Origin: Herbidospora sakaeratensis
GTDB lineage: Bacteria; Actinomycetota; Actinomycetes; Streptosporangiales; Streptosporangiaceae
DNA: 64,000 nt
Assembly: GCF_001570525.1 (NCBI RefSeq)
Contig: NZ_BBXC01000022.1
Coordinates: forward strand, 108,385 to 172,384
Direction: 5' to 3'
The position numbers and the translations under genes are program-made. This document shows positions 21,829 to 42,463 of this stretch, in pieces. The number at the start of each line of letters is the position of its first letter. Positions within the stretch are counted from its first letter, which is position 1. The notes below the pieces were generated by a model that searched no databases, had not been told where the DNA came from, and saw nothing but the letters and a program-made list of their open reading frames with translations.

Positions 21829-21835
21829 GCCGTCC

Positions 21836-23941: not shown

Positions 23942-23952
23942 GATCAGTCCTT

Positions 23953-27195: not shown

Positions 27196-27210
27196 GTCCG
27201 TCCTTTCGCT

Positions 27211-27239
27211 GTTACCGCTTACAACGCTATGGCGGTAAC
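27211..27239. promoter_or_regulatory. 29-bp inverted repeat operator before the benzoxazole-type operon
   Basis: GTTACCGC (27211-27218) and GCGGTAAC (27232-27239) are perfect 8-bp arms around a 13-base spacer. The repeat lies 15 bases upstream of the monooxygenase ATG, a position suited to repression. Seen as GTTACC-N17-GGTAAC it matches the architecture of the site at 28748-28776, which points to one regulator for both promoters. Confidence 0.7.
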
Positions 27240-27282
27240 TACGGCCGAACAATGGCATCTCGATTAGCGCTAGTTATGCAAT

Positions 27283-27330: not shown

Positions 27331-28722
27331 TCAGGCGTCGACTTTCTCCCTTTCGACCGCGGGCCTCCGCGACGGCAGCACGGCGGCCGCGATCAGCGCG
27401 ATCAGCACCGACAGGACCGTGCTGATGCCGAACGCGACGTGGTAGCTGCCGATGTTCTGCGGGTCGGTCGACGGCACCGCCGCCGTCACGGCGACGGCCA
27501 GCAGCAGCCCGACCCCGAGCTGGCGCAGCGAGTTGTACAGGCCGCTGGCCAGGCCCATGCGCGGCCCGTCGACCCCGGTCGTGGCGGCCACCGCCGTGGA
27601 GATCATCATGACGGTGACGCCGAGCCCGATCAGCACGCCGCCGGGCAGCACGTGCAGCCAGTAGCTGCCGCCTGCGGGCACCGTGAGCAGCCAGGCCGAA
27701 CCGGCGGTCAGGAACGCCGCCCCGCCGATGAGCACCGGCCGGGGCCCGACCCGCCCGGTCAGGTCGGCCACGAACTTGGCCGACAACACGGTCACGACGG
27801 CCTGCGGGAAGAACGCGACGCCGGTCTGGATGGCGGAGTAGCCGAGGCCGTGCTGCATGTAGAGGGTCAGGAAGTAGGTCGAGATCGACATGACGCCGCC
27901 CGACAGGAACGCGATCGAGTCGCCCGCGACGACGCCGCGGATCTTGAAGATCGACAGCGGCACCAGCGGGTTCGCCCGCCGGGTCTGGAGCACGAAGAAC
28001 GCGGCGAGCAGCACCGCCGCCCCGATCAGCGGGTAGACGACGCCGGGGGCGCCCCAGCCGTGGTCGGTGGCCGTGGTGAGGGCGTAGGTCAGCGCGCACA
28101 TCCCGGCCGTGACCAGGATCGCGCCGGGCACGTCGATCTTCTGGGTGCGCGCCGAGACGTGGTCGGGGGCCAGCCGGCCGACCGCCCGCAGCACCAGCGC
28201 GACGCCGACCGGGACGTTCACGAACATGACCGCCCGCCACCCGAACAACTCGGTGAGGATGCCGCCGAAGAGCACCCCGCCGGTGAACCCGGCCGAGGCG
28301 ACCGCGCCGAAGATGCCCATGGCCTTCGCGCGCTCCCTGCCTTCGGGGTAGCCCGCCGCGATCAGCGCCAGCACGGCCGGCGACACCGCCGCCGCCGAGA
28401 GGCCCTGCAGCGCGCGGGCGACGATGAGCACGATCGGCTCGGTCGCGACCCCGCCGGCCAGCGAGGCCGCGGTGAAGACGGCCAGCCCGCCGACGAACAT
28501 CCTCTTGCGTCCCACGATGTCGCCGAGCCGCCCGCCGATCAGCAGGAACCCGCCGAAGAACAACGCGTACGCGCCGACGACCCACTGCAGGGCGCTGTCG
28601 GTGAAGCCGAGGTCACGCTGGATGGAGGGCAGTGCGACGTTGACGATCGCGAAGTCCAGGACCAGCACGAACTGGGCCATGCACAGCAGTGCCAGGGCCG
28701 GCTTGCGGTTCTCCTGGAACAT
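27331..28722 (-). CDS. MFS drug exporter, DHA2 family (14 TM)
   Basis: 463-residue transporter with about 14 hydrophobic segments. Motif C-type FVLVLDFAIVNVALPSIQRDL, motif A-type GGRLGDIVGRKRMFVGG and the following ARALQGLSAAAVSPA stretch place it among drug:H+ antiporters of the QacA/EmrB group. ATG at 28722 has GAGGAGGAAAA upstream. It diverges from the CGNR regulator across a shared inverted repeat and lies beside the benzoxazole-type operon, so it is probably its export and self-protection gene. Confidence 0.9.
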   Translation of the reverse strand: MFQENRKPALALLCMAQFVLVLDFAIVNVALPSIQRDLGFTDSALQWVVGAYALFFGGFLLIGGRLGDIVGRKRMFVGGLAVFTAASLAGGVATEPIVLIVARALQGLSAAAVSPAVLALIAAGYPEGRERAKAMGIFGAVASAGFTGGVLFGGILTELFGWRAVMFVNVPVGVALVLRAVGRLAPDHVSARTQKIDVPGAILVTAGMCALTYALTTATDHGWGAPGVVYPLIGAAVLLAAFFVLQTRRANPLVPLSIFKIRGVVAGDSIAFLSGGVMSISTYFLTLYMQHGLGYSAIQTGVAFFPQAVVTVLSAKFVADLTGRVGPRPVLIGGAAFLTAGSAWLLTVPAGGSYWLHVLPGGVLIGLGVTVMMISTAVAATTGVDGPRMGLASGLYNSLRQLGVGLLLAVAVTAAVPSTDPQNIGSYHVAFGISTVLSVLIALIAAAVLPSRRPAVEREKVDA

Positions 28723-28777: not shown

Positions 28778-29368
28778 ATGAAGGGGCAGCCGGGAGACAG
28801 GGAGATCGCGCCGGGTCCGCTGGCGCTGGTGCAGTCGTTCGTGAACAGCCTCAACGTGGAGTTCGGGCCCGACGAGTTCGCGACGACCGAGGCGGCCGGG
28901 CGCTGGCTCGCCCGCCACGGCTTCCCGCTGGAGGTGGCCGAGCTCGACCGGCGCGACGCCGTCACCCTGCGGGAGGCGCTGCGCGCCGTGCTCCGCGAGA
29001 ACAACGGTGGCACGCCCGACTCCGAGGCCCGGCTGACGATCGGCCACATCGCCCGCGACTGCCCGCTGGTGCTGTCGGGCGAGACTCTGGGCCTGCGCCC
29101 GGTGCAGCCCGACCTGCGTGGCGTGTTCGCGACCATCCTCGGTTCCGTCGCCTCGGCCGTGGCCGACGGCTCGTGGTCCCGCCTGAAGGCCTGCCGCGAA
29201 CACCGCTGCGAGTGGGCCTTCTACGACCGCTCCCGCAACCGGGGCAGCCGCTGGTGCTCGATGGCCGTCTGCGGCACGAGGGCGAAGATGCGCACCTACC
29301 GCCGGGGCGCGGCCGACCGGGCCGAGTCCCGAGCGGGCGACGGCACCGACGCCGGACCGGTGACCTGA
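28778..29368 (+). CDS. CGNR zinc-finger (ABATE-domain) regulator
   Basis: 196 residues. The N-terminal ABATE-like region (about 15-140, starting ALVQSFVNSLNVEFG) is followed by a zinc finger with Cys at CREHRC, WCSMAVCG and the usual trailing AKMRTYRR. The signature CGNR reads CGTR. No ribosome-binding site precedes the ATG, and TTGATT (28741) and TTTACT (28765) are spaced as -35/-10 elements for a transcript that would begin at the ATG, so a leaderless mRNA is plausible. It probably binds the paired GTTACC-N17-GGTARC sites. Confidence 0.8.
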   Translation: MKGQPGDREIAPGPLALVQSFVNSLNVEFGPDEFATTEAAGRWLARHGFPLEVAELDRRDAVTLREALRAVLRENNGGTPDSEARLTIGHIARDCPLVLSGETLGLRPVQPDLRGVFATILGSVASAVADGSWSRLKACREHRCEWAFYDRSRNRGSRWCSMAVCGTRAKMRTYRRGAADRAESRAGDGTDAGPVT

Positions 29369-29382
29369 GACCTTCCGGCCGG

Positions 29383-30522
29383 TCACGGGGCCGCCTCCCG
29401 TCCCAGCAGGTGACGGGCGACCACGAGTTTGGTCGCGGCGGCGGTGCCGTCGGCCAGTTGCAGGCCGATGACGTCGCGCAGCCGCTGGGCCACCGGGCCG
29501 TCCTCCGACCAGCCGAGGTGGCCCATCGTGAGGAGCGACTGGTGCACGGCCTCCATGGCGGCCTTGGGGGCCCACCACTTGGCCATGTTCGCGGGCAACC
29601 GGGGGTCGCGGCCGGCGTCGGCGGCGGCCAGGGCCTCGTAGGAGACCAGGCGGGCCGCGTGGAGCATGGTCGCGTGTTCGACCAGCGGGAACGCGACCGA
29701 CTGGAACTTCCCGATGGGCTGGCCGAAGGCTTCGCGCCGGCCGGCGTGGGCCATGGCCTCGTCGAGGGCGGCGCGGCCGACGGCGATCGCCATCAGGGAG
29801 ATCAGCGCCCGGGAGACCCCGAAGCCGCGCATGACCTCCACGAAGCCCGCGCCCGGCCGGCCGACGAGGTCCTCGTCGGCGACCCGCAGGCCGTCGAGGC
29901 GGAAGCGGCCCCGCCCGCCCGAGCGGCAGCCCAGGTCGGTGTGCAGCTCCCGGGGCACCCCGTGCAGCGGGGTGTAGAAGGCGCTGATGCCGCGGGCCCC
30001 GGCCCCGCCGGTGCGGGCGAACAGCAACCCGTGGGTGGCGTAGGCGGTGGCCATGATGGACGTCTTCTCGCCGGTCAGCCGCCAGCCGTCGGCGGCGTGT
30101 TCGCCGACGGTCTCGATGGCCGCCGCGTCGGTGCCGTGGCCGGCCTCGGTCAGGCCGAGGGCGACGATCGACGTGCCGGCGGCGAGGCCGGGCAACCAGC
30201 GGGCCAGCTGGGCCGGGGTGCCGTTGGCGGCCAGCACGCCGCCGACCAGCGCCGCGTTGAGCACCGGGTAGCAGACCGACAGGTCGGCCGAGGCGAGCTC
30301 TTCGAGCACGATGCCGGCGCTGACGGCGTCCAGGCCCTGACCGCCGAACTCCTCCGGGACGCGCAGACCGAAGAGTCCTTCGGCGGCCATCTCGGCCAGC
30401 AGCCCGGGGCGGTATTCGGCCCGCCGGTCGCTCTCGGCCCGGAAGGGCGCGACGCGGTCGGCGGCGAACTCGCGCACCCGTTTGGCCAGCGTCTCCTGTT
30501 GGGGTGTGAAGTCGAAGTTCAT
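29383..30522 (-). CDS. Acyl-CoA dehydrogenase
   Basis: FAD-dependent dehydrogenase of 379 residues introducing an alpha,beta double bond into an acyl thioester. Blocks: GLRVPEEFGGQGLD, ALGLTEAGHGTD, TGEKTSIMATAYATH, GFGVSRALISLMAIAVGRAA, and the C-terminal GHLGWSEDGPVAQRLRDVIG with LQLADGTAAATKLVVARHLLG. The closing block resembles cyclohexanecarboxyl-CoA dehydrogenase-type enzymes. It is the last gene of the AmCP operon, coupled by ATGA to the acyl-CoA ligase, and the pair probably makes an unsaturated acyl building block or modifies an amino acid side chain. Confidence 0.88.
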   Translation of the reverse strand: MNFDFTPQQETLAKRVREFAADRVAPFRAESDRRAEYRPGLLAEMAAEGLFGLRVPEEFGGQGLDAVSAGIVLEELASADLSVCYPVLNAALVGGVLAANGTPAQLARWLPGLAAGTSIVALGLTEAGHGTDAAAIETVGEHAADGWRLTGEKTSIMATAYATHGLLFARTGGAGARGISAFYTPLHGVPRELHTDLGCRSGGRGRFRLDGLRVADEDLVGRPGAGFVEVMRGFGVSRALISLMAIAVGRAALDEAMAHAGRREAFGQPIGKFQSVAFPLVEHATMLHAARLVSYEALAAADAGRDPRLPANMAKWWAPKAAMEAVHQSLLTMGHLGWSEDGPVAQRLRDVIGLQLADGTAAATKLVVARHLLGREAAP

Positions 30523-31982
30523 CGCAGCCCCTCCCGCAGGGCGAATTTCTGGATCTTCCCGGACGGCGTGCGCGGCAGCGCCTCGACGAGCTCCAGCCGT
30601 TCGGGCCAGTACTGCTTGGCCATGCCGAGCCCGGCCAGGTGCACGCGCAGGTCGTCGAGCGTCACCCCGGAGGGGGCGACCAGGACCGCGCAGGCCCGCT
30701 CGCCGAGCCGCGCGTCGGGGTAGCCGACGACCGCGACGTCACGAATGGAGGAGTGCCGGAGCAGGGCGGCCTCGACCTCGACGACCGGGATGTTCTCGGC
30801 GCCGCGCATGATGACGTCCTTGGCGCGCCCGGTGATCCGGATGCCGCCGTGGCCGTCGTCGCGGGCCAGGTCGCCGGTGTCGAACCAGCCGTCGCCGGTG
30901 AGGCAGGCCTGGTAGAGGTGCTCGCGCCGGAAGTAGCCGGCGCACTGCGACGCGCCCCTGACCTGTAAGCGGCCCTCGCCGGTGACGCGCACCTCCATGC
31001 CCGGCACGACCGTTCCGTCGCTCTCGGCGGCCCGCATCGGCGGGTCCTCCGGCCTGGTGATGGTGACGCAGCCGTTCTCGGTCATGCCCCACAGGGCGTA
31101 GAGGCGGCAGCCGAGCACGTCGCGGGCGCGTTCGACCAGGTAGGGCGCGATCGGCGCGCTGCCGGTCGCGAACGTCTCCAGTTTCGTCAGATCCCTCGGC
31201 CGCTCGGCCTGCGCCTCGATGAGGTCGGCCAGGAACGTGGGGGCGCCCATGAAGAAGCTCACCCCGCGCTCCTGGAGCACGTCGAGCATGCGGCCGGCGT
31301 CCCACGACTCGACGTGCACGGCGGTGCCGCCCAGCAGCAGCGGCATGAACAGGTTCCAGGTGAACCCGGCCTGGTGCGTCGTCGGCGACCCCATGGCCGT
31401 GACGACGTCCGACGTCAGGTGGAGCACGTCGGCCTGCGCCCGGTTCATCGCGTAGAGGCTGTCGTGGGTGTGCACGACGCCCTTCGGCTCGCCGGTCGTG
31501 CCGGAGGTGAACGCGACCTGCGCCGGGTCGCCGGGACCCGACTCCTCGGCCCCGGCCAGGTCGGCCGGGGGCAGCTCCAGGTCGTCGACGAACAGGGCGT
31601 GACGCAGGTGCGGCGCGTCCACGTCGTCGATCATCCGCCGGTACGAGAACCCGCGGAACTCCGCCTTGGCGAGGTAGACCGGGCTCTCGGTGAGGTTCAG
31701 CATGAACTGCACCTCACGCCGCCGCATGATCGGCACCACCGGCCCGGGAATCGCCCCGATCCGGTAACACGCCAGGATCAGCGCCGCCAGCTGCCACGAG
31801 TTGGGCAGCTGCAACGTCACGACCTGGCCCCTGCCGACGCCGAGCCGGCGCAGCAGGGTGGCCATCCGGTCGACGCGGTCGAGCAGTTCTCCGTACGTCA
31901 GCTCCACGACCCCGCCGTCCTGGTGGCAGACCAGGGCGAGCTTGCCGGGAGGATGGGCGCGCAGGTCGTCCATGATGGTCAT
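30519..31982 (-). CDS. Acyl-CoA ligase (AMP-binding, cyclohexanecarboxylate-CoA ligase-like)
   Basis: 487-residue adenylate-forming ligase. AFTSGTTGEPKGVVHTHDSL is the P-loop, YALWGMTENGCVTI the aromatic-substrate motif, FDTGDLARDDGHGGIRITGR the hinge area and SGKIQKFALR the catalytic Lys. ATG at 31982 is chosen because it overlaps the transketolase stop as ATGA; another Met lies three codons in. With the adjacent dehydrogenase it resembles an activation-dehydrogenation pair. Alternative reading: it loads a carrier protein elsewhere. Confidence 0.85.
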   Translation of the reverse strand: MTIMDDLRAHPPGKLALVCHQDGGVVELTYGELLDRVDRMATLLRRLGVGRGQVVTLQLPNSWQLAALILACYRIGAIPGPVVPIMRRREVQFMLNLTESPVYLAKAEFRGFSYRRMIDDVDAPHLRHALFVDDLELPPADLAGAEESGPGDPAQVAFTSGTTGEPKGVVHTHDSLYAMNRAQADVLHLTSDVVTAMGSPTTHQAGFTWNLFMPLLLGGTAVHVESWDAGRMLDVLQERGVSFFMGAPTFLADLIEAQAERPRDLTKLETFATGSAPIAPYLVERARDVLGCRLYALWGMTENGCVTITRPEDPPMRAAESDGTVVPGMEVRVTGEGRLQVRGASQCAGYFRREHLYQACLTGDGWFDTGDLARDDGHGGIRITGRAKDVIMRGAENIPVVEVEAALLRHSSIRDVAVVGYPDARLGERACAVLVAPSGVTLDDLRVHLAGLGMAKQYWPERLELVEALPRTPSGKIQKFALREGLR

Positions 31983-32905
31983 CGCGGCGACCTCCCCAGC
32001 GCTGATCGGGCTTTGGCGGCGACCGCGGCCGAGGTGACGCCTCCGCGTTCGGCGAGATACCGCTGCCCGCCGGAGACGGGCACGAACGCGTCCGGCATCG
32101 CAACCCGGAGCACCAGGCTGGGCGTGATCTCGGCCAGCGACTCGGCGACGGCGGCGCCGAAGCCGGCGTTCCGCCAGTGCTCCTCGACGGTCACCACGAC
32201 GCCCGAACGTTGTGCGTGCGCGGCGATCGTGGCGACGTCCAGGGGCTTCACGGTGTGCACGTTCAGCACCGAGGCGCGGACGCCCTCGTCGGCGAGCGCG
32301 TCGGCGGCGTCGAGCGCGGCCAGCACCGGGTAGGGCCCGCACGCGGCGAGCGTGACGTCGGCGCCGTCGCGCAGCACCTGCGCCAGGCCGAGCGTGACCG
32401 GCGGCGCCTCGGGCAGCTCGGGGGTCGCGTTGCGGCCGAGCCGCAGGTAGACCGGGCCGTTGACGCGCAGCGACTGCCGGAACAGGGTCCCGGTCTGCGG
32501 GCCGTCGGCCGGCACGACCACGGTCATGTTGGGCAACGTCCGCATCACGGCCAGGTCCTCCAGCGCGTGGTGGGTCGGCCCGAGGTGGCCGGCGGACACG
32601 CCCGAATGGGTCGCGGCGATGCGCACCGGCAGGTTGTTGAGGGCGATGTCGATCTTCACGGCCTCGTTGGCGCGCGACGACGCGAACGCCGCCATCGTGT
32701 TGACCAGCGGCATCCGGCCCGACTTGGCGAGCCCGGCCGCCGCGCCCATCAGGGTGTGCTCGGCGATGCCGAGGTTGACGTAGCGCTCCGGGAAGGCGGC
32801 CGCGTCGAACAGGCCGGTGTCGGAGTCGAGGCAGACCAGCCGGTCGTCCTGCGGGAGCAGGTCGAGCACGGCGTCGCGGTAGACCTCGCGGGACGAGGCG
32901 GTCAT
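31979..32905 (-). CDS. Transketolase, C-terminal subunit
   Basis: Second half of a split thiamine-diphosphate transketolase, 308 residues. It carries the pyrimidine-binding half (RYVNLGIAEHTLMGAAAGLA with the conserved Glu) and the C-terminal domain (VNVHTVKPLD-like segment and VTVEEHW). Partner of the N-terminal subunit immediately upstream, overlapped by four bases. In AmCP clusters such as vazabitide and azinomycin a split transketolase adds a two-carbon ketol unit to the LysW-bound semialdehyde; the same role is inferred here. Confidence 0.9.
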   Translation of the reverse strand: MTASSREVYRDAVLDLLPQDDRLVCLDSDTGLFDAAAFPERYVNLGIAEHTLMGAAAGLAKSGRMPLVNTMAAFASSRANEAVKIDIALNNLPVRIAATHSGVSAGHLGPTHHALEDLAVMRTLPNMTVVVPADGPQTGTLFRQSLRVNGPVYLRLGRNATPELPEAPPVTLGLAQVLRDGADVTLAACGPYPVLAALDAADALADEGVRASVLNVHTVKPLDVATIAAHAQRSGVVVTVEEHWRNAGFGAAVAESLAEITPSLVLRVAMPDAFVPVSGGQRYLAERGGVTSAAVAAKARSALGRSPR

Positions 32906-33732
32906 GACGCGGCCCCCCTTCGCAGCGCGGCGAGGGCCTTGGCGTGCTGGCGCTCGCCCAGCTTGGCGTAGTGGCTGCGCGGCTGGTCCTCGACGAACGG
33001 GAGGCCCTTGCCCTTCACGGTGTGCGCGATCACGACGGTTGGGCGGCCCGGGGTCGGCGGCTCGGTGAGCGCGGCCTCCAGCTCCTCGCAGGAGTGGCCG
33101 TCGACCTGGCGTACCGTCCAGCCGAAAGCCGACCAGCGGTCGGCCAGCGGTTCGAGCGCGTCGATCGTCTCGGTCGCGCCGGTGATCTGGAGCCGGTTGC
33201 GGTCGACGATCGCGACCAGGGTGTCGAGCCGCTGGGCGGCGGCCACCGAGGCGGCCTCCCAGACCGAGCCCTCCTGGAGTTCACCGTCGCCCATGACGAC
33301 GAAGCAGCGCCGGTCGGCGCCGTCGAGGCGGAAGCCCAGGCCGAAACCGACCGCCAGCGCCAGCCCGTGGCCGAGCGAGCCCGAGGGCATCTCGACGCCG
33401 GGGATCTCGGCGTGGGGGTGGGCCATGAACTCGCCGCCGGGCCGGCCGTATTCGGCGAGCCGCTCGGCGGGGAAGAACCCGGCCTCGGTCAGCGCGGCGT
33501 AGAGCGCCAGGCCGCCGTGGCCCTTGCTGAGCAGCAGCACGTCACGGCCGGGGAACGCCGGGTCGAGGGGGTCGACCCGCAGCACCCGCGTGTAGAGGGT
33601 GGCGAGGATCTCCGCGAGCGACATCGAGCCGCCCAGGTGGCCGCCCTCGGGGCCGGCGCACAGGTTGACGACGTGCTCCCTGATCCGGGCGGCCGTCCCG
33701 GCCGCCGGAGGGGCGTCGATGGTGGTGGTCAT
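32902..33732 (-). CDS. Transketolase, N-terminal subunit
   Basis: 276-residue ThDP-binding half. The GDG...N cofactor motif is VVMGDGELQEGSVWEAAS followed by VAIVDRNRLQI; SKGHGGLALYAAL and SGSLGHGLALAVG are further transketolase blocks. A short Ala/Pro-rich N-terminal extension (TTTIDAPPAAGTAAR) precedes the fold. It begins eight bases after the LysY-like gene and overlaps the C-terminal subunit, so both halves are made in step. Confidence 0.92.
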   Translation of the reverse strand: MTTTIDAPPAAGTAARIREHVVNLCAGPEGGHLGGSMSLAEILATLYTRVLRVDPLDPAFPGRDVLLLSKGHGGLALYAALTEAGFFPAERLAEYGRPGGEFMAHPHAEIPGVEMPSGSLGHGLALAVGFGLGFRLDGADRRCFVVMGDGELQEGSVWEAASVAAAQRLDTLVAIVDRNRLQITGATETIDALEPLADRWSAFGWTVRQVDGHSCEELEAALTEPPTPGRPTVVIAHTVKGKGLPFVEDQPRSHYAKLGERQHAKALAALRRGAAS

Positions 33733-33740
33733 CGCTTCTC

Positions 33741-34775
33741 CTAGTTCGGGTGCAGGCCGACGAACTCCAGGCCCTCGCGCTCGGGGCGCCCGTGGCGGAT
33801 GTTCATGCACTGCACGGCGTTGCCGGCGCCCCCCTTGACGAGGTTGTCGAGGGCCGCGATCACGGTGACCGTGGTCGAACCGGCGTCGAGGGCGAAGCCG
33901 ACGTCGCAGAAGTTGGAGCCGGAGAGGATCTTGGCGTCCGGGAACCGGTGCAGGCCGCGCCGGTGGGCGACCACCCGCACGAAGTGCTCGTCGGCGTAGC
34001 GGTCGCGGTAGGCCGACCGGATCGCGCGCTCGTCGGCGCCCCCGGCCAGCCGGGCCTTGCAGAGCAGCTGCACGCCGCGCACGGCCTCGACGCCGGTCGC
34101 CGTCATCCGCACCGGCAGCCCGGTGGCCTGGGCGATCTCCGCCTCGTGCCGGTGCCGGGTGGGCGCGAACACGCGCAGCGCGCCGCTGCGTTCGGCGTGC
34201 AGGTTCTCCGCGCCGGCGGTCGCGCCGGCGCCGCTCGACCCGGTGCGGGCGTCGACGGTCAGCTCGCCGTCGATCAGCCCGGCCTCGGCCAGCGGGGTCA
34301 GCGCCAGGATGCCGGCGTTGGCCATGCACCCGGGCACGCTGATGCGGCTCGCGACCTGGAGTTCCTCGCGGTGCAGCTCCGGCACACCGGTCGTGAAGCC
34401 GTCGATGAGCTCGGGCGCGGCGTGCTCGACGCCGTAGTAGTCGGCGTAGACCGCCGGGTCGCGCAGCCGGAAGTCGCCCGACAGGTCGACGACGGTCGCG
34501 GCCAGCCCGAGGAACTCGGGCATCCGCCGCATCGTCTCGCGATGGGGCGTGGCCAGGAACAACACGTCGTAGGGGCCGTCCTGGTCGAGCTCCTCGTCGG
34601 AGACGAAGGCCAGCCGGGTGCGGCCCCGGAGGTTGGGGTGGGCGCCGTCGATCTGCCGGCCGCGCAGCCGCCGCGAGGTGGTGGCCACCAGCTCGGCCGA
34701 TGGGTGCCCGGTGAGGATGCGCAGGAGTTCGCCGCCGATGTAGCCGGCGCCTCCCACGACGGCGCATCTGATCAT
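33741..34775 (-). CDS. lysY: LysW-gamma-glutamyl/aminoadipyl phosphate reductase (ArgC/LysY)
   Basis: NADPH-dependent reductase of 344 residues that turns the carrier-bound acyl phosphate into a semialdehyde. N-terminal VVGGAGYIGGELLRIL is the dinucleotide fold; Cys in ISVPGCMANAGI is the thiohemiacetal nucleophile; GSSGAGATAG and the closing LDNLVKGGAGNAVQCMN are ArgC blocks. With LysW and LysX just upstream it acts on the LysW conjugate and not on N-acetylglutamyl phosphate. Start overlaps the LysX stop (ATGA). Confidence 0.92.
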   Translation of the reverse strand: MIRCAVVGGAGYIGGELLRILTGHPSAELVATTSRRLRGRQIDGAHPNLRGRTRLAFVSDEELDQDGPYDVLFLATPHRETMRRMPEFLGLAATVVDLSGDFRLRDPAVYADYYGVEHAAPELIDGFTTGVPELHREELQVASRISVPGCMANAGILALTPLAEAGLIDGELTVDARTGSSGAGATAGAENLHAERSGALRVFAPTRHRHEAEIAQATGLPVRMTATGVEAVRGVQLLCKARLAGGADERAIRSAYRDRYADEHFVRVVAHRRGLHRFPDAKILSGSNFCDVGFALDAGSTTVTVIAALDNLVKGGAGNAVQCMNIRHGRPEREGLEFVGLHPN

Positions 34776-35620
34776 GCCTCTGCCCTCGTGATGAGATGGG
34801 AGGCGACCACGTCGGCGACGTCGATCTCGTGGGCGTCCTGGAAGCCGCGGAACTCCACGCGGTCGTTGACCTCCAGGACGGTCAGGTGCCCGTCGGCGTC
34901 TTCGAGCAGGTCCACCCCGGCGATCTCGGCGCCGACCGCCTCGGCGGCGGCGACGGCGAGCTTCGTGTGGACGTCGGTCAGGTCGCACCGGGTCGAGACG
35001 GCGCCCCGGGCGACGTTGGTGCGCCACTCGTCGCCGCGCCGGTAGGTCGCGCCCAGCGCCTCGCCGCCGACGACCAGCACCCGGATGTCCCGGTCGGCCT
35101 TCTCGACGAGTTCCTGCACGTAGACGACGTGCTGCTGGGGCGAGGGCAGGGCCGCGACGTGTTCGAGCACGGCGGTGGCGGTGGGCCGGTCGGGGATCGC
35201 GGTGACGAGGCGTCCCCACGATCCGACCAGCGGTTTCACGACCGCCGGGTAGCCGATCTGGTCGAGCGCGTCGACGGCCGCCTCGGGCGTCATGGCCAGG
35301 GCCGTGCGGGGGGTCGGCAGGCCCGCGGCCAGGAGCGCCGAGGTGGTCAGCCACTTGTCGCCGCTGACGTGGGTGGCGGCGGCGCTGTTCAGCACCGTCG
35401 CCCCCGCCGACTCCAGCGCGCTCGCGGCGTAGAGGGCCCGGTAGTGGCCGACCTCGCGGTTCAGCACGAATCCGGACCGGGAAACGCCGTCGGCCACGAC
35501 CAGAGACCGGGGATCGAGGTGGACGAATGTCGCGCCGCGCCGGTCGAGCGCGGCCATGATCTGCTTCTCCTCGAACCGCACCCGTGACGCGAGCACGGCG
35601 AGGCGACGGCCGGAGCGCAT
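34772..35620 (-). CDS. lysX: LysX-like ATP-grasp ligase, attaches an amino acid to LysW
   Basis: RimK/LysX-group ATP-grasp enzyme, 282 residues, joining the alpha-amino group of glutamate or aminoadipate to the C-terminal Glu of LysW. Blocks: SGDKWLTTSALLAAGLPTPR, YPAVVKPLVGSWGRLV (ATP grasp), VYVQELVEKADRDIRVLVVG and the metal/substrate end VLEVNDRVEFRGFQ. In LysX/ArgX enzymes the residues of that last block discriminate aminoadipate from glutamate; here NDRVEFRGF is not diagnostic by eye. It shares TAATG with LysW. Confidence 0.9.
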   Translation of the reverse strand: MRSGRRLAVLASRVRFEEKQIMAALDRRGATFVHLDPRSLVVADGVSRSGFVLNREVGHYRALYAASALESAGATVLNSAAATHVSGDKWLTTSALLAAGLPTPRTALAMTPEAAVDALDQIGYPAVVKPLVGSWGRLVTAIPDRPTATAVLEHVAALPSPQQHVVYVQELVEKADRDIRVLVVGGEALGATYRRGDEWRTNVARGAVSTRCDLTDVHTKLAVAAAEAVGAEIAGVDLLEDADGHLTVLEVNDRVEFRGFQDAHEIDVADVVASHLITRAEA

Positions 35621-35802
35621 TACTCCCCCCAGTCCTCTTCGACCTCGGGGGCGAGGGTGAGGGACGGCGGCGTGACGGAGGAGATCTCCAGCTCACTGCG
35701 GCAGTCGAGGCATTCGACGATCTCGCTCACCCGGGCGTCGGCGTCGATGGAGACCGGCGCCGCGCACTCGGGACACTCGGGGGCGTTCATAACCTTCTGC
35801 AT
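35620..35802 (-). CDS. lysW: LysW amino-group carrier protein (AmCP)
   Basis: 60-residue carrier protein. Two zinc pairs, CPECAAP and CLDCRSE, and the C-terminal EEDWGE, whose last Glu accepts the amino acid through its side-chain carboxylate, are diagnostic. It protects the alpha-amino group of a glutamate/aminoadipate-derived intermediate while the side chain is rebuilt. Start at 35802 (or a Met four codons later at 35790). It is first in the minus operon and diverges from the encapsulin operon; arginine/lysine biosynthesis neighbours are absent, so it belongs to secondary metabolism. Confidence 0.95.
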   Translation of the reverse strand: MQKVMNAPECPECAAPVSIDADARVSEIVECLDCRSELEISSVTPPSLTLAPEVEEDWGE

Positions 35803-36026
35803 GGCTCGTCCCTATGTCGTCGGGGAAATATCGGCGTTTCAACCGTAACCAGAACCGGCGTGAAATCGCCAATAAGGGTTGCCGATCGAAGTGAATTCCC
35901 GCGCTTATGGGGGGCCGTATAAACAGGTGATTCGCCGGGCATAAGCGCTCCTACTCGATTTGGTACGGAAATTCATCCGCGCAATTCATAGGCTCAATGG
36001 GAGTCGTATATCCCTAGGAGGGCTCA
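35803..36026. promoter_or_regulatory. Divergent promoter region of the AmCP and encapsulin operons
   Basis: A 224-base region clearly richer in A+T than its surroundings separates the two operons. AGGAGGG lies 6-12 bases before the encapsulin ATG. TAGGCT near 35990 is a possible -10 for the plus strand, with no good -35 at standard spacing. I see no strong palindrome and no copy of the GTTACC-N17-GGTARC site, so this pair seems to be under separate control. Confidence 0.5.
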
Positions 36027-36863
36027 ATGCGAGCGATCGCCCTGCACGAAGCCCCGGCCGCCCTGTCCCATGAAGGGTCGCCGGGTGAGCGGTTCGCCGC
36101 CGAGGTGGCCGCCGGGGCCCGCGAGGTCCCGTTCGGCCTGCACCTTCCGGCCGCGTTCCCGCTGTTCGCCTCCCGGCCGCGCTACACGGTCCGGCACCTG
36201 CTGAAGACCGCAGACGTGGCCGACGGCTCGGTGTCCTACGTCCACGAGCCGCCCCAGGGCCGGATCGAGGCCGCGGGCACCGCCTACGGCGCCACCCCGG
36301 AGGCCGCGTTCGCGCCCCGCCTGATGCGGGCGCCGCTGACCGACCTGTCCGTCGAGGTGCCGCTGCCCGGCGGCGTCGCCGACGACCCCGCGCTGCTGGC
36401 CGCCTACGTCGACTACCGGGTGCTGGTGCGCCTGTCGGTCGTCGAGAACGAGTCGCTGCTGCACGGCACCGCCGACGGCGCGATCACCGGCCTGCTGGGC
36501 CTGCCGGGCAGCCGCTCGGCCGAGAGCCACGACGACCTGGCGACCACGGTCACCCGGGCCGCCGGGGAGATCGAGGAGACCGGCGGGTCGTGCGACGGCG
36601 TGGTGGCGCACCCGGAGACGTACTGGAAGATGGTCCGCGACGACCTGTTGGTGCGGTTCCAGAACGCCGGCATCACCGTCTCGCGCACCCGCATGATGCC
36701 CAAGGACACCCTGCTCATGGGCGACTTCCGGGCCGCCTGCACGCTGCTCATGCCGGGCGTCGCGTCGATCGGGCTGGTGCCGGGGGCGGTGCGGGCCACG
36801 TCCAGGATCGGGCTGGCGGTGCACCTGCCGCAGCACCTGATGGCGGTGAAGTGGCATGGGTGA
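36027..36863 (+). CDS. Family 3 (natural-product) encapsulin shell protein, HK97 fold
   Basis: 278 residues with the segment order of an HK97-type capsid protein. An N-arm (1-50) is followed by the E-loop strands (about 68-115: SVSYVHEPP, AAGTAYGATPEAAFAP, LSVEVPLPGG), the spine helix (119-144, DDPALLAAYVDYRVLVRLS) running into NESLLHGTADGAITGLLGLP as in HK97 gp5, an A-domain with GVVAHPETYWKMVRDD and MPKDTLLMGDFRAA, and a closing P-domain strand GLAVHLPQHLMAVKW. No phage gene is nearby. It opens a biosynthetic operon and overlaps the sulfotransferase by eight bases, so it should form a cytosolic nanocompartment for the pathway. Confidence 0.85.
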   Translation: MRAIALHEAPAALSHEGSPGERFAAEVAAGAREVPFGLHLPAAFPLFASRPRYTVRHLLKTADVADGSVSYVHEPPQGRIEAAGTAYGATPEAAFAPRLMRAPLTDLSVEVPLPGGVADDPALLAAYVDYRVLVRLSVVENESLLHGTADGAITGLLGLPGSRSAESHDDLATTVTRAAGEIEETGGSCDGVVAHPETYWKMVRDDLLVRFQNAGITVSRTRMMPKDTLLMGDFRAACTLLMPGVASIGLVPGAVRATSRIGLAVHLPQHLMAVKWHG

Positions 36864-37770
36864 GCCGCGCGTCCTCTACATCACCGGCTGGTTGCGCAGC
36901 GGCAGCACCATGCTCGGCAACGTGCTGGGCGAACTGCCCGGCGTGCTGCACGCCGGCGAGCTGCACTACCTGTGGCAGAACGGCATCCTCAGGGCCGGCA
37001 CCAACTCGACCTGCGGCTGCGGCGCCGACGTGACCGCCTGCGACCTGTGGTCGAAGGTGATCACCTCGACGGGTGGTGACCGGCTGGGCGAGGCGCGGCT
37101 GATGACGCTCCGGCAGCGGGCGCTGCTGCGCACCCGCCACACCCGCGACCGGATCGCCGAGTCGACCGGCCGGGCGCCCACCGCGCCGGGCGTGGCCGAG
37201 GCGATCTCGCGTACCGCCGAGGTCTACCGCACCCTCGCCGCGCACGGCGGTGAGCGGCTGATCGTCGACGGCTCGAAGTTCCCGGCCGAGGCGGCGGCCC
37301 TGCTGGGCCGCGCCGACCTCGACGTGCGGGTGCTGCACATGGTGCGCGACCCGCGCGCGACCGCGTTCTCCTACGCGAAGGCCAAGGACTACATCGACCC
37401 GATGAGCCCGGCCCGCAGCAGCGGCTTCTGGACCGGCTTCAACCTGGCCTCCGAACTGTCCGGCCACGCCGCCCCCGACCGCTACCTGCGGGTGCGCCAC
37501 GAGGATCTGTGCCGCGACCCGCGCGGCACGCTCGCGCGGGTGTTGCGGTTCGCCGGCCTCGACGACGACCCGCCCGCCGACGCCGACGGCAACGTCACGC
37601 TGGGCGTGAACCACACGGTCACCGGCAACCCCGACCGCCTGTCGGCCGGCCCGGCGCGCATCCGCGCCGACGAACGCTGGCGCACCGGGCTGCCGGCCCG
37701 CGCCCGCGCCGCCGCCACGGCCCCGGCCCTGCCCCTGCTCGGCCGGTACGGCTACCCGATTCTGACCTGA
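36856..37770 (+). CDS. PAPS-dependent sulfotransferase
   Basis: 304 residues. The 5'-phosphosulfate loop is YITGWLRSGSTMLGNVL and the 3'-phosphate site is VLHMVRDPRATAFSYAKA; YLRVRHEDLCRDPRGTL is the third family block. It resembles the carbohydrate/small-molecule sulfotransferases. In vazabitide and azinomycin biosynthesis sulfation of an AmCP-bound hydroxyl creates the leaving group for aziridine closure; the same activation step is inferred here. Overlap with the shell gene makes it the first candidate for encapsulated cargo. Confidence 0.88.
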   Translation: MGEPRVLYITGWLRSGSTMLGNVLGELPGVLHAGELHYLWQNGILRAGTNSTCGCGADVTACDLWSKVITSTGGDRLGEARLMTLRQRALLRTRHTRDRIAESTGRAPTAPGVAEAISRTAEVYRTLAAHGGERLIVDGSKFPAEAAALLGRADLDVRVLHMVRDPRATAFSYAKAKDYIDPMSPARSSGFWTGFNLASELSGHAAPDRYLRVRHEDLCRDPRGTLARVLRFAGLDDDPPADADGNVTLGVNHTVTGNPDRLSAGPARIRADERWRTGLPARARAAATAPALPLLGRYGYPILT

Positions 37771-37782
37771 GGGGGACATCCC

Positions 37783-38550
37783 ATGGATCTGCGCCTGAAA
37801 GGGCGGGTCGCCCTGGTGGCCTGCTCCAGCAGCGGCCTCGGCCTGGGCGTCGCCAAGGCCCTGGCCGCCGAGGGGGCCAGCGTGGCCATCTGCGGCCGCG
37901 ACCCCGGCAAGCTCGCCCGCGCCCACGTCGAGGTGAGCGCGATGGGCGACGGCGACGTGCTGAGCGTGCCCGTCGACCTGACCGACGAGAACGCCGCGGC
38001 CGCCTGGGTCCGCGACGCCGCCGCCACCCTCGGCGGCGTCGACATCCTCGTGACCAACTCCGGCGGGGTGCCGTTCGGCCCCGTCGACGCGTTCGGCGTG
38101 GCCGACTACCGGGCCGCGATCGACGCCAACCTGATCCCGCACATCGCCCTGACGCTGGCCGCGCTGCCCTACCTGAAGAAGGACGGCTGGGGCCGGCTGC
38201 TGATGATCGCCTCCGAGTCGGTCCGGCAGCCGCACCCCGAGAGCGGCCTGTCGTCGGTGGCCCGGCTGGGGCTGCTCGGCTACATGAAGGGCCTGGTCTC
38301 CGTGCTGGGCGCGAGCGGGGTGACGGTGAACGTGCTGGCCCCCGGCTTCCACCGCACCCCGATCCTCGACGAGCAGTTCGGCGCCTCCGTGGAGGAGGAG
38401 CTCGCCGCCGTCGCGCGGCGGATCCCGCTGGGCCGGATCGGCGACGTCGACGACTTCGGCGCGCTGGCCGCCTTCCTCGCCAGCGACCAGGCCGCCTATG
38501 TCACCGGCACGGTCTTCGTGGCCGACGGCGGCAACACCAGAGGAGTGTGA
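37783..38550 (+). CDS. Short-chain dehydrogenase/reductase with replaced catalytic Tyr/Lys
   Basis: 255-residue SDR with a classical Rossmann start (ALVACSSSGLGLGVAKAL) and TNSGG at the NAG position. Where Y-x3-K is expected after the Ser (MIASESVRQ) the text reads GLSSVARLGLLGY, so Tyr and Lys appear as Ser and Arg. Such 'S-N/S-x-x-R' SDRs exist as a subgroup, and their chemistry need not be simple ketone reduction. It lies 12 bases after the sulfotransferase. It could reduce the transketolase-made ketone or act in another step. Confidence 0.85.
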   Translation: MDLRLKGRVALVACSSSGLGLGVAKALAAEGASVAICGRDPGKLARAHVEVSAMGDGDVLSVPVDLTDENAAAAWVRDAAATLGGVDILVTNSGGVPFGPVDAFGVADYRAAIDANLIPHIALTLAALPYLKKDGWGRLLMIASESVRQPHPESGLSSVARLGLLGYMKGLVSVLGASGVTVNVLAPGFHRTPILDEQFGASVEEELAAVARRIPLGRIGDVDDFGALAAFLASDQAAYVTGTVFVADGGNTRGV

Positions 38551-38553
38551 GAA

Positions 38554-40428
38554 GTGTCTGTTCTCGGTGAGGTCGCCACCACCCACACGGCGGCCCTCTA
38601 CGTCATCAAGATCGGCAGCGCCAGCCTCGCCCACGAGAGCGTCTTCGACGAAGTGGCCCGCCTGCGCGGGCGCGGCGCGAAGATCCTCCTGGTGGCGGGC
38701 GGCGCGGCCGGCATCGCGGCCCACTACGCGGCCATCGGCCGCCCGGTGCGCTCGCTCACCCTGAAGAACGGCTCCACCGCGCGCTACTGCCCGCCGGAGG
38801 AGATGGACCACATCGTGGCCGCCTACGAGCGGGTCACCCTGCCCCGCGTGCACGCCGCGCTGACCGCGCGCGGGCTGACCAGCTTCACCTCGACGGCCCA
38901 GGCGGGCTCGCTGGTGACGGCCCGGCCCAACCCGCCGCTGCGGGCGGTGTCGGGCGGTCGCACGATGGTCGTGCGCGACCACCGCGCCGGGGTCGTCTCG
39001 TCGGTGGACGCCGACTGCCTGGCCACGCTGCTCGACGCGTTCGACGTCGTCTGCCTGGCGCCCCCGGCCGCCGCCGCAGGCGGCGGGTCGCCGCTGAACG
39101 TGGACGCCGACGTGCTGGCCGCCGAACTGGCCAACGCGCTCGACGCCGACCACCTGCGACTGGTGACCGGGACGCCGGGGCTGCTCGCGGACCCTTCCGA
39201 TGAGTCCTCCGGCCTCGCCGACCTCGGCCGCGGCGAAGGGCTTCACTACGCCGAGGGCCGCATGCGGCAGAAGGTGCGCGCGGCCGAGATCGCCCTCGAC
39301 GGCAGCGCCGACGTGGCCATCACCGGCCCCCACTCCCTGGAGGTCGGCACCCGCTTCTGGCGGGCCGCCGCGCCCGCCGGCGACCTCACGCTGCTGTCGC
39401 GGGCCGTGGAGATCTCCTCGGTCTCCCGCGACGAGCGCGAGCTGGCCGAATACCTGGTCTCGTGGTGCCGCGAGCGCGGCATCGACGCCGGGATCGACGA
39501 GGCCGGCAACCTCGTGGCCTCGAAGGGCTCCGGCCGCCGCCGCCTCCTCATGCTCGGCCACCTCGACACCGTCCCGCACCGCTGGCCGGTGCGCTGGGAC
39601 GGCGGCACCATCTCCGGCCGGGGCTGCGTCGACGCCAAGGGCAGCCTGGTCGCCTACCTGGAGACGCTGCACGAGCTCGACGTGCCGCCCGACGCCCAGG
39701 TCAGGGTGGTCGGCGCGGTCGAGGAGGAGATCACCTCGGCGGGCGCGTTCTTCGTCCGCGACCACTACCGCGCCGACGCCGTCGTGATCGGCGAGCCGTC
39801 CGGCGCGGGCGCGCTGACCATCGGCTACTACGGCCTGCTGAAGGTCCGGGTGGCCGTCGCCGACCCCGTCGGGCACACCGCGGGCCAGGGCGTCACCACG
39901 GCGGCCGACCAGATGGTCGACGTGCTCGCCCGGTTGCGCGCCGCGCTGGCCGAGGCGGGGCCCGACGCCCTGCTGGCCGTGCTCGGCATCCACGCCGTCA
40001 ACGGCGGCGACGAGCAGCGCGGCGAGGCGGTCGTGGACGTCCGGGTGCCCGCCGACCTGTCGGTCGCCGACCTGACCCGGCTGATCCGCACCGTCGCCCA
40101 TCCGATCGAGGTGGAGGTGCTGCGGGCCACCCCCGGCCACCTCACCGCCCGCACCAGCCCGCTGGTCAAGGCCTTCTCGCGGGCCTTCCGCGCCGAGGGC
40201 GTGGTCAACCGGTTCCTGGCCAAGAAGGGCAGCAGCGACATGAACACGCTGGCCACGACGTGGCAGGGGGTGCCGATGGTGGCGTACGGCCCCGGCGACG
40301 CCAAGCTCGACCACACCCCGCACGAGCACCTGGACGCCGTCGAGTACCGGCGGGCCCGCGCGGTGTTGTCGCGCGCGGTCGCCGAGTGGATCGCGGCCGA
40401 GACCCGGCTCGTCGAAAGGGCGGCGTGA
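38554..40428 (+). CDS. LysZ-LysK fusion: LysW-amino acid kinase joined to M20 peptidase
   Basis: 624-residue bifunctional protein. Residues about 15-265 form an amino acid kinase of the LysZ/ArgB type (YVIKIGSASL, LLVAGGAAG, NVDADVLAAELANAL, LVTGTPGLL, MRQKVRAAEIAL), which phosphorylates the side-chain carboxylate on LysW. Residues about 275-615 form an M20 metallopeptidase like LysK (MLGHLDTVPHRW, GRGCVDAKGSLVAYLE, VGAVEEEITSAG, GEPSG, KKGSSDMNTLA), which frees the finished amino acid from LysW. Fusing the second and last steps of the carrier pathway in one chain is unusual. GTG start with AGGAG upstream. Confidence 0.88.
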   Translation: MSVLGEVATTHTAALYVIKIGSASLAHESVFDEVARLRGRGAKILLVAGGAAGIAAHYAAIGRPVRSLTLKNGSTARYCPPEEMDHIVAAYERVTLPRVHAALTARGLTSFTSTAQAGSLVTARPNPPLRAVSGGRTMVVRDHRAGVVSSVDADCLATLLDAFDVVCLAPPAAAAGGGSPLNVDADVLAAELANALDADHLRLVTGTPGLLADPSDESSGLADLGRGEGLHYAEGRMRQKVRAAEIALDGSADVAITGPHSLEVGTRFWRAAAPAGDLTLLSRAVEISSVSRDERELAEYLVSWCRERGIDAGIDEAGNLVASKGSGRRRLLMLGHLDTVPHRWPVRWDGGTISGRGCVDAKGSLVAYLETLHELDVPPDAQVRVVGAVEEEITSAGAFFVRDHYRADAVVIGEPSGAGALTIGYYGLLKVRVAVADPVGHTAGQGVTTAADQMVDVLARLRAALAEAGPDALLAVLGIHAVNGGDEQRGEAVVDVRVPADLSVADLTRLIRTVAHPIEVEVLRATPGHLTARTSPLVKAFSRAFRAEGVVNRFLAKKGSSDMNTLATTWQGVPMVAYGPGDAKLDHTPHEHLDAVEYRRARAVLSRAVAEWIAAETRLVERAA

Positions 40429-41306
40429 TGACGACCACCACTCACTTGGAGGCGCTGGAGGCCGAGGCCGCGCACATCATGCGCGAGACCGCCGGCGAGT
40501 TCGACCGGCCGGTGCTGCTGTTCTCCGGCGGCAAGGACTCCATCGTCATGCTGCACGTCGCCGCGAAGGCGTTCGCCCCCGCGCCGGTGCCCTTCCCGCT
40601 CCTGCACGTCGACACCGGCCACAACTTCCCCGAGGTCATCGAGTTCCGCGACCGGGTGACGGCCGGCCTGCGGCTGGAGGTCGCCTCCGTGCAGGACTAC
40701 ATCGACCGGGGGGCGCTGCCGGACGTACCGGAGAGGAACGGGCTGCAGACCACGCCCCTGCTGGACGCCATCGAGGCCGGCGGTCACGACGCCGTCTTCG
40801 GCGGCGGCCGGCGCGACGAGGAGAAGGCCCGCGCGAAGGAGCGCGTGTTCTCCCTCCGCGACGAGTTCGGAGGATGGGACCCGCGCCGCCAGCGCCCCGA
40901 ACTGTGGAACCTCTACAACGGCCGCCACAACCCGGGGGAGCACGTGCGCGTCTTCCCGTTGTCGAACTGGACCGAGCTCGACGTCTGGCAGTACATCGCG
41001 GCCGAGGACATCGCACTGCCGTCGATCTACTACGCCCACGAGCGCGCGGTGTTCGACCGGCGCGGCATGTGGTTGTGCCCCGGCGCGTGGGGCGGGCACG
41101 GGGAGCGGCTGGTGCGCCGGACGGTGCGTTACCGCACGGTCGGCGACATGTCGTGCACCGGCGCGGTCGAGTCGGCCGCCCGCACGCCCGGCGAGGTGAT
41201 CGAGGAGATCGCGGCCTCGCGCATCACCGAACGCGGCGCGACCCGCGCCGACGACCGGCTGGCCGAGGCCGCCATGGAGGACCGCAAACGAGAGGGGTAC
41301 TTCTGA
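40428..41306 (+). CDS. cysD: Sulfate adenylyltransferase subunit 2 (CysD)
   Basis: ATP sulfurylase small subunit, 292 residues, making APS from ATP and sulfate. The PP-loop is LLFSGGKDSIVMLHVA, followed by LHVDTGHNFPEVIEFRD and GGGRRDEEKARAKER; the C-terminal MEDRKREGYF is standard. The ATG shares TGATG with the kinase-peptidase stop. Its presence in this operon supplies activated sulfate for the sulfotransferase. Confidence 0.95.
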   Translation: MTTTTHLEALEAEAAHIMRETAGEFDRPVLLFSGGKDSIVMLHVAAKAFAPAPVPFPLLHVDTGHNFPEVIEFRDRVTAGLRLEVASVQDYIDRGALPDVPERNGLQTTPLLDAIEAGGHDAVFGGGRRDEEKARAKERVFSLRDEFGGWDPRRQRPELWNLYNGRHNPGEHVRVFPLSNWTELDVWQYIAAEDIALPSIYYAHERAVFDRRGMWLCPGAWGGHGERLVRRTVRYRTVGDMSCTGAVESAARTPGEVIEEIAASRITERGATRADDRLAEAAMEDRKREGYF

Positions 41307-42463
41307 TGTCCACGCTGCTCAGGCTGGCCACCGCCGGCTCCGTCGACGACGGCAAGTCGACCCTGGTCGGACGTCTGCTGCACGACTCCAAGTCGGTCAT
41401 GTCCGACCAGCTGGAGAAGATCGCCTCGCCCAGCGACCTGGCCCTGCTCACCGACGGCCTGCGCGCCGAACGGGAGCAGGGCATCACGATCGACGTCGCC
41501 TACCGCTACTTCGCCACCCCGCGCCGCCGGTTCGTGCTGGCCGACACCCCGGGCCACGTGCAGTACACGCGCAACATGGTCACCGGCGCCTCGACGGCCG
41601 AGCTCGTCGTGCTCGTGGTCGACGCCCGCAGGGGCGTGACCGAGCAGACCCGCCGCCACGCCGCCGTGGCCGGGCTGCTGCGGGTGCCGTCGCTGGTGCT
41701 GGCCGTCAACAAGATGGACCTGGTCGGCTGGTCGGAGGAGGTCTTCGCGGCCATCGCCGACGACCTCGACTACCCCGGCGAGGTGACCGCCATCCCGATC
41801 TCGGCCCTGACCGGCGACAACGTGGTGACCCCGTCGGAGCACATGGACTGGTACGCCGGGCCGACCGTGCTGGAGTTCCTGGAGACGGCCGAGACCGGCG
41901 AGGACCTGACCGCGCTGCCCGCGCGGCTCCCGGTCCAGTACGTCATCAAGACACGCGGCCGCCGCGCCTACGCCGGCCAGCTCACGGGCGGCATCCTGCA
42001 CGTCGGCGAACGGGTGGTCGTCCAGCCCGGCGGCCGCACGACGACGGTGGCGGGCATCGACGTGCTGGGGGAGCCGGTGACGATGGCCTGGGCGCCGCAG
42101 TCGATCGCGGTCCGGCTGGCCGACGACCTCGACGTGTCGCGCGGGGCGCTCATCTCGCCCGCCGCGACCGCGCCCGGGACCACCCGCGAGCTGCGCGCCA
42201 CGGTCTGCCACCTGCACGAGAAGGCGCTGACGGTGGGCGAGAAGGTGCTGGTCAAGCACACGACCCGGACCGTCCACGCGGTGGTGGAGCACATCGGGAC
42301 GGGCGGCCCGCTGGGCGTCAACGACATCGGCGACGTGGTCGTGCGCACGGCCGCCGACCTGGCGGTCGACGACTACGCCGAGAGCCGGATCACCGGCGCC
42401 TGCCTGCTGATCGACCCGGGCGACGGCGCGACCCGGTCGGCCGGCATGATCTCGGTCGGCTGA
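41306..42463 (+). CDS. cysN: Sulfate adenylyltransferase subunit 1 (CysN, GTPase)
   Basis: 385-residue GTPase subunit that drives APS synthesis. G1 is AGSVDDGKSTLVGRL, G3 DTPGHVQYTRNM, G4 NKMD; EREQGITIDVAYRYF is the switch region. It is shorter than CysN/NodQ fusions and carries no APS kinase domain, and no cysC gene lies in the window, so the second step to PAPS must come from elsewhere in the genome. Start shares TGATG with cysD. Confidence 0.94.
   Translation: MSTLLRLATAGSVDDGKSTLVGRLLHDSKSVMSDQLEKIASPSDLALLTDGLRAEREQGITIDVAYRYFATPRRRFVLADTPGHVQYTRNMVTGASTAELVVLVVDARRGVTEQTRRHAAVAGLLRVPSLVLAVNKMDLVGWSEEVFAAIADDLDYPGEVTAIPISALTGDNVVTPSEHMDWYAGPTVLEFLETAETGEDLTALPARLPVQYVIKTRGRRAYAGQLTGGILHVGERVVVQPGGRTTTVAGIDVLGEPVTMAWAPQSIAVRLADDLDVSRGALISPAATAPGTTRELRATVCHLHEKALTVGEKVLVKHTTRTVHAVVEHIGTGGPLGVNDIGDVVVRTAADLAVDDYAESRITGACLLIDPGDGATRSAGMISVG

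Follow-up and report, generated by a model that had tools for sequence, protein, structure and literature searches.

Family 3 encapsulins are HK97-fold proteins found in biosynthetic gene clusters together with a sulfotransferase, a short-chain dehydrogenase/reductase (SDR) and a LysW-type carrier (Andreas and Giessen, 2021; PMC8346489). The main text of that paper links one product to them, chloromyxamide with its 6-chloromethyl-5-methoxypipecolate, calls the role of the shell unknown, and already proposes that such a shell confines reactive species, in that case aldehydes and ketones. In this work we analysed a window of 64,000 nucleotides of Herbidospora sakaeratensis DNA, in which 36027-36863 codes for such a protein, followed on the same strand by genes for a sulfotransferase, an SDR, a kinase-M20 hydrolase fusion, CysD and CysN. 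Comparison with related loci adds, at the level of sequence, to what the main text of PMC8346489 describes: a constant partnership of the encapsulin with the sulfotransferase and the SDR rather than with LysW, three mutually exclusive supply routes, and the lack of the catalytic tyrosine in all 50 SDRs aligned. The words transketolase, aziridine and leaving group do not occur in that main text, although some of these additions may already appear in its figures and supplements, and we found no paper on an HK97 encapsulin in a natural product biosynthetic gene cluster in the open-licence literature since 2022; subscription journals may differ.

The C7 pathways of azinomycin and vazabitide share a logic in which glutamate, protected by a carrier or an N-acyl group, passes through a kinase, a reductase and a transketolase, and in azinomycin sulfate serves as a leaving group, sulfation being followed by ring closure (PMC9570651). 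In CurM of the curacin pathway, sulfation activates a hydroxyl for loss (PMC6274090). The window cluster contains the azinomycin/vazabitide-type set of carrier, ligase, kinase, reductase and transketolase as judged by domain families. It differs from these pathways in having no aminotransferase among the genes scanned (17.7-42.5 kb), and in having an encapsulin and an SDR without the catalytic tyrosine (Tyr-less SDR), neither of which is mentioned in the pathway passage of PMC9570651.

Family and fold of the capsid-like protein

The product of 36027-36863 matches the curated equivalog profile NF041188 with 325 bits (cut-off 180), residues 19-271 covering the whole profile, which identifies it by sequence as a genuine family 3 encapsulin in a biosynthetic cluster, a kind that was already known. 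Its AlphaFold2 (AF2) model has the HK97 fold, with the HK97 prohead as the best PDB fold match, and in two PDB fold comparisons every one of the matches listed (50 each) was a capsid protein, a shell protein or an HK97-like entry. The protein is likely to assemble into a shell. An earlier note made on this DNA had proposed an HK97-fold, family 3 encapsulin with no phage gene nearby, at the head of an operon for carrier-protein chemistry and sulfation. The fold, the family and the gene content of the operon all agree with it; a fold unrelated to HK97, which the note had named as a refutation, was not what the model showed. No phage Pfam family was detected among the neighbouring genes scanned (17.7-42.5 kb). 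The Pfam profile of family 1 encapsulins, Linocin_M18, stayed below its cut-off (13.6 bits versus 24.3), and a family 3 structure was not among the PDB sequence matches. Membership among phage major capsid proteins was considered and rejected: no PHROG family was matched at E ≤ 1, the neighbours scanned include no phage family, and tblastn gave only weak similarity (68 phage records at E ≤ 1, the best with E 3e-3 and 27% identity). A scan of IMG/VR contigs with two conserved encapsulin patterns returned 26 pattern matches and no relative, and a plasmid search gave no match.

Constant partners and exchangeable supply routes

A pattern scan of GTDB genomes yielded 46 actinobacterial loci; the Myxococcus and Mesorhizobium types lie outside this sample because both patterns derive from actinobacterial sequences. 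Partner genes were counted by tblastn of the window genes, since crude gene calls missed many of them. The sulfotransferase lies within 6 kb of the encapsulin in 46/46 loci, directly downstream (less than 400 nt) in 39, and the SDR lies within 1.5 kb in 45/46, the sole miss (L045) stopping at a contig edge. The other window genes are less constant: LysW in 33 loci, the kinase-M20 fusion in 34, the AMP ligase in 38, the flavoprotein in 37, and CysD in 26, which shows that many of the clusters bring their own sulfate activation. Compared by sequence, the constant unit of the family 3 loci sampled is therefore the encapsulin with the sulfotransferase and the Tyr-less SDR, the supply route being exchangeable. 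LysW as a constant partner was rejected, and the suggestion of the earlier note that the shell surrounds LysW-bound intermediates does not hold as it was worded: because neither LysW nor the fusion was found within the DNA covered in 11/46 loci, the shell follows the sulfation/SDR step and not the carrier. The shell may still have a role in confining reactive species.

An independent sample comprised 394 genomes of the same class, with at most five sulfotransferase candidates scored per genome. The encapsulin was above its cut-off in 9/394 genomes, and a sulfotransferase match at E ≤ 1e-20 was present in 63, reaching at least 226 bits (this clade) in eight, all of which carry an encapsulin no more than about 2.7 kb away; among the 55 genomes with weaker matches the highest score was 176 bits. 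In the ninth genome with an encapsulin (G309), a sulfotransferase of a different family, PF19798, is directly upstream. This encapsulin (L102) is a distant family 3 member whose N-terminus is long and of low complexity; it is also preceded, as judged by eye only, by an aldo-keto reductase-like open reading frame (ORF) and a nonribosomal peptide synthetase (NRPS)-like ORF with a reductase-like end.

Three loci (L029, L031 and L033) have a different arrangement, with the SDR directly after the encapsulin, the sulfotransferase on the opposite strand at a distance of about 4.7 kb, and genes for DegT, an FAD oxidase and a carbamoyltransferase in between. In these loci the tie of the encapsulin to the SDR is kept and that to the sulfotransferase is looser.

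The SDR is itself atypical. Ser157 and Arg161 replace the catalytic Tyr and Lys in 50/50 aligned sequences (column counts), and the YxxxK motif of classical SDR dehydrogenases is absent from the product of 37783..38550; among 11 SDR paralogs of the same genome, the Tyr is kept in 10 and the Lys in eight. The five nearest solved SDRs (5va8, 5vps, 5idx, AerF 6jh7 and 2z1n) likewise have no Tyr. In AerF and in the Burkholderia proteins 5va8, 5vps and 5idx it is missing at the same place as in the cluster SDR, but AerF has Asn at the position of Arg161, and the genomic setting and substrates of these proteins are presumably different. Because the nearest solved relatives without Tyr include NADP(H) complexes by title (5idy, 5va8, 5vps and AerF 6jha), we prefer the idea that the cluster enzyme may carry out hydride transfer without a Tyr acid, for example the reduction of an iminium.

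The 46 loci fall into three mutually exclusive supply groups: 35 with the LysW route (the 33 with LysW, plus L014 and L036, which have the kinase-M20 fusion only), four with an aspartokinase and a GriI-type aldolase, and seven with a DegT aminotransferase. Ten of the 11 loci of the last two groups were covered over the full 20 kb, L045 being cut at a contig end. The DegT gene is also present in four further distant loci (L103-L106), and the DegT query, the only aminotransferase query made in the 35 LysW-route loci, had no match there. Within the LysW route, L023, L024, L027, L028, L030, L034 and L039 stand apart as a subgroup with a second LysW type, which is 38-44% identical and preceded by a 2-oxoglutarate-Fe dioxygenase gene.

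The aldolase group (L035, L037, L040 and L041) also carries a HAD phosphatase gene, and the aspartokinase of L035 has 73-82% identical copies in the three others. The aldolase next to the encapsulin in L035 resembles the DhnA-type aldolases GriI, BagB and FevI of the 3-amino-4-hydroxybenzoic acid (3,4-AHBA) pathway, yet its NF041223 score (357 bits) does not reach the cut-off of 500; it passes that of the ADTH synthase profile NF005556 (315 bits, cut-off 241). GriI is responsible for the aldol step in 3,4-AHBA formation, and its product is a 2-amino-6-oxo C7 acid with a phosphate on C7. Together, GriI and GriH build 3,4-AHBA from aspartate semialdehyde (C4) and dihydroxyacetone phosphate (C3), by aldol condensation and then cyclisation (PMC8697445). 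In contrast with that pathway, no DHQS/GriH-like gene was found in the four aldolase loci (best E 3.9, the L108 copy serving as positive control with 377 bits); a search of three genomes for DHQS gave no match in G395, and in G394 and G396 a gene beside a second aldolase elsewhere. The LysW and transketolase route predicts 2-amino-5,7-dihydroxy-6-oxoheptanoate, and the aldolase product would have one hydroxyl more. Judged from their genes, two unrelated routes are thus predicted to give similar C7 2-amino-6-oxo acids, in which attack of the free amine on the ketone would form a six-membered imine.

A proposed mechanism and its alternatives

Since the sulfotransferase lies within 6 kb of the encapsulin in all 46 loci, the encapsulin likely forms a shell that would hold a reactive, sulfate-activated molecule. 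We propose that this shell would house or shield the sulfotransferase and atypical SDR steps by which a C7 amino acid would become a sulfate-activated, probably aziridine-type, alkylator, and we give this reading a probability of about 40%. From gene order, domain families, the predicted fold, the constant partners and the missing SDR residues we infer the chemical steps, the assembly and the cargo. In Herbidospora, LysX would load glutamate onto LysW. The kinase part of the fusion, together with the ArgC-like enzyme, would turn it into a carrier-bound semialdehyde, which the split transketolase would extend by two carbons to 2-amino-5,7-dihydroxy-6-oxoheptanoate. Once the M20 part had released this C7 acid, its free amine would close on the C6 ketone, and the Tyr-less SDR would use NADPH to reduce the resulting six-membered imine to a hydroxymethyl-pipecolate. 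A hydroxyl would next be sulfated by the sulfotransferase, which CysDN would supply, and the ring nitrogen would displace the sulfate to form a bicyclic aziridine, likely inside the shell or on it.

At E ≤ 0.001 the sulfotransferase has a single relative in the PDB, 4gox, whose deposited name is 'Polyketide synthase' and which we take to be the sulfotransferase domain of an olefin synthase. As in CurM, sulfation would activate a hydroxyl for loss; the cluster enzyme differs in being free-standing, and loss of its sulfate is predicted to occur by nitrogen attack, as opposed to decarboxylation in curacin-type CurM. In some loci the sulfotransferase C-terminus has tryptophan-containing tails (WTSD, WIWG, LWPGExW), some behind flexible linkers, which were first taken for cargo-loading peptides. 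They were then rejected as probable artefacts, since they appear to be the beginning of the SDR gene or its ribosome site translated in the frame of the sulfotransferase.

A broader version of the proposal, which we regard as rather doubtful, is that family 3 encapsulins are in general shells for bicyclic aziridine alkylators, combining convergent C7 supply, a Tyr-less SDR and a sulfate leaving group with a shell that stands in for the ring-closing enzyme and keeps the closure away from the cytoplasm. The 6-chloromethyl-5-methoxypipecolate of chloromyxamide would then be a chloride-opened trace, since a bicyclic aziridine on such a skeleton would be expected to yield this residue when opened by chloride.

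Several observations weigh against our proposal. A separate enzyme closes the aziridine in the azinomycin and vazabitide pathways (Vzb10/11, AziU3/U2). The second nitrogen of azinomycin comes from an aminotransferase (PMC9570651), and no such enzyme was found among the window genes scanned. No cargo-loading peptide was found on the sulfotransferase, the other enzymes having been checked in part. CysC is not in this cluster, although the genome encodes two APS kinases on other contigs, and no recognised C7 source was found in the seven DegT loci. Tree-distance (Mantel) correlations from FastTree trees, whose taxa differ between the two sets, point the same way in part. Encapsulin distances correlate best with those of the SDR, both on 31 shared taxa (r 0.87; sulfotransferase 0.71, ligase 0.62, flavoprotein 0.62) and on 22 (0.92; ligase 0.76, sulfotransferase 0.76, kinase-M20 0.73, flavoprotein 0.55), so that on 22 taxa the ligase equals the sulfotransferase. 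On 31 taxa the sulfotransferase tree follows the flavoprotein (0.94) and the ligase (0.87) but the encapsulin only at 0.71. These values speak for the SDR as the closest partner of the encapsulin and weaken a special tie between encapsulin and sulfotransferase.

The alternative that survives best, although we consider it somewhat unlikely, is a shell for stable sulfation, in which the sulfotransferase, the SDR or both are inside, the sulfate stays on the product as a decoration, no aziridine is formed, and a reactive aldehyde or ketone is kept from the cytoplasm. Sulfated hydroxyls in the products and aldehyde or ketone sequestration are proposed in the main text of PMC8346489, a further point against our reading, and the frequent presence of CysD suits stable sulfation as well. 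However, chloromyxamide (Myxococcus cluster), the only family 3-linked product in that text, is given there without sulfate and with chlorine on the extra carbon, a position that would fit chloride opening of an aziridine.

We find it quite unlikely that the HK97-fold protein is itself catalytic, or is a soluble scaffold for the sulfotransferase/SDR pair that needs no closed shell. Twenty-five of its positions, including 13 polar or charged ones, are the same in 51/51 sequences, but invariant capsid residues are often structural. Candidate catalytic Cys and His residues, invariant in 26 close sequences (the window copy and 25 of 120 listed homologues, 284 having been found, hand-picked for diversity), are not universal across the 51, where Cys189 is Ala in six and His195 is Asn in four, and this candidate was demoted accordingly. 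The recurring families outside the query genes in LysW-route sources are CGNR, LysR and LuxR-type regulators, YcaO, a glycosyltransferase and another SDR; all being known, no gene of unknown kind recurring in at least five sources is left as ring closer, within the limits of crude gene calls, which favours a catalytic encapsulin. The matches listed in its fold searches are all capsid-like, as described above; that no ring-closing enzyme is among them excludes nothing.

Finally, a domesticated phage capsid remnant without a pathway role, to which the weak phage capsid similarity could point, is very improbable: the ratio of nonsynonymous to synonymous substitutions (dN/dS) of the encapsulin across six Herbidospora-group sequences (0.13) is at the low end of the range of the six enzymes tested (0.126 to 0.361) and indicates purifying selection, the gene is kept with the sulfotransferase in 46/46 loci, and the two conserved patterns found no relative in IMG/VR.

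Surrounding genes and significance

The features of the cluster are listed in Table 1. Divergently from the encapsulin run, the minus strand carries genes for LysW, LysX, the ArgC-like reductase, the split transketolase, the AMP ligase, the acyl-CoA-dehydrogenase-like protein and the MFS exporter. Among NCBIfam profiles, the two halves of the fusion match [LysW]-lysine hydrolase and [LysW]-aminoadipate kinase best, but neither reaches its equivalog cut-off, and TIGR01206 scores the LysW-like carrier slightly below its cut-off (49.8 versus 53.2 bits). Beyond the exporter lie genes that Pfam assigns to an aryl acid and its assembly: a carrier protein, an AMP ligase, two KAS-III-like enzymes, a chorismate-binding enzyme, an NRPS A-PCP, a DAHP synthase and an FAD monooxygenase. 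From this content, the Herbidospora product would seem to combine the C7 amino acid with an aryl acid; the arm was not seen in most other loci within the locus DNA covered. A scan of 35700-36100 for promoters and terminators found nothing.

Table 1. Predicted features of the encapsulin cluster in the window
Feature	Coordinates	Strand	Basis
Family 3 encapsulin, predicted shell protein, HK97 fold	36027..36863	+	NF041188; AF2 model; HK97 prohead best match
Sulfotransferase	36856..37770	+	Sulfotransfer_3 57.1 bits (cut-off 27); 8-base overlap with encapsulin
Atypical SDR, Ser157 and Arg161 at canonical Tyr/Lys sites	37783..38550	+	adh_short_C2 147.6 bits; AF2 pLDDT 93.6
LysZ-like amino acid kinase/LysK-like M20 hydrolase fusion	38554..40428	+	AA_kinase, Peptidase_M20
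CysD, sulfate adenylyltransferase small subunit	40428..41306	+	TIGR02039 417.8 bits (cut-off 396.6)
CysN, sulfate adenylyltransferase large subunit	41306..42463	+	TIGR02034 432.7 bits (cut-off 336.1); GTP_EFTU
LysW-like amino-group carrier protein, C-terminal EDWGE	35620..35802	-	PF21344 50.7 bits (cut-off 27)
LysX-like ligase, predicted carrier loader	34772..35620	-	RimK, LysX preATP-grasp; TIGR02144 262.7 bits (cut-off 275.6, not reached)
ArgC/LysY-like semialdehyde dehydrogenase	33741..34775	-	PF22698, PF01118
Transketolase N-terminal subunit	32902..33732	-	PF00456 148.1 bits
Transketolase C-terminal subunit	31979..32905	-	PF02779, PF02780
AMP-dependent ligase, in 38/46 related loci	30519..31982	-	PF00501
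Acyl-CoA-dehydrogenase-like flavoprotein, in 37/46 related loci	29383..30522	-	PF00441, PF02771, PF02770
Probable CGNR zinc-finger (ABATE-type) regulator	28778..29368	+	ORF; relatives in L002, L003 match PF11706, PF07336
MFS exporter	27331..28722	-	PF07690 173.1 bits
Probable aryl-acid and assembly arm	17701..27258	-	Pfam; cluster membership inferred from position

The CGNR-type regulator, whose family recurs in 15 loci (crude gene calls), sits in the window between the flavoprotein and the exporter and leaves the proposed chemistry as it was. Farther away, a small ORF (79 amino acids, no Pfam match) and a YcaO cyclodehydratase gene (270 bits) at 50250-52435 on the plus strand are, from their sequences, likely an azole-type locus for a ribosomally synthesized and post-translationally modified peptide. 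As the YcaO family recurs in 8/47 sources, the window counted (crude gene calls), this locus may belong to the encapsulin cluster after all. A LysR regulator is encoded at 49144-50010 on the minus strand; its family is present in 14/47 sources, counted in the same way, and lies between LysW and the encapsulin in some Streptomyces loci, which makes it a candidate cluster regulator.

The constant unit of encapsulin, sulfotransferase and Tyr-less SDR, and the two supply routes that converge on one predicted kind of skeleton, raise the interest of these loci. They also narrow the question, since with such a constant unit the search for cargo can begin with two proteins, the sulfotransferase and the SDR. 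If it is true that the shell confines a sulfate-activated alkylator, family 3 encapsulins would provide a capsid-derived organelle for toxic small-molecule chemistry.

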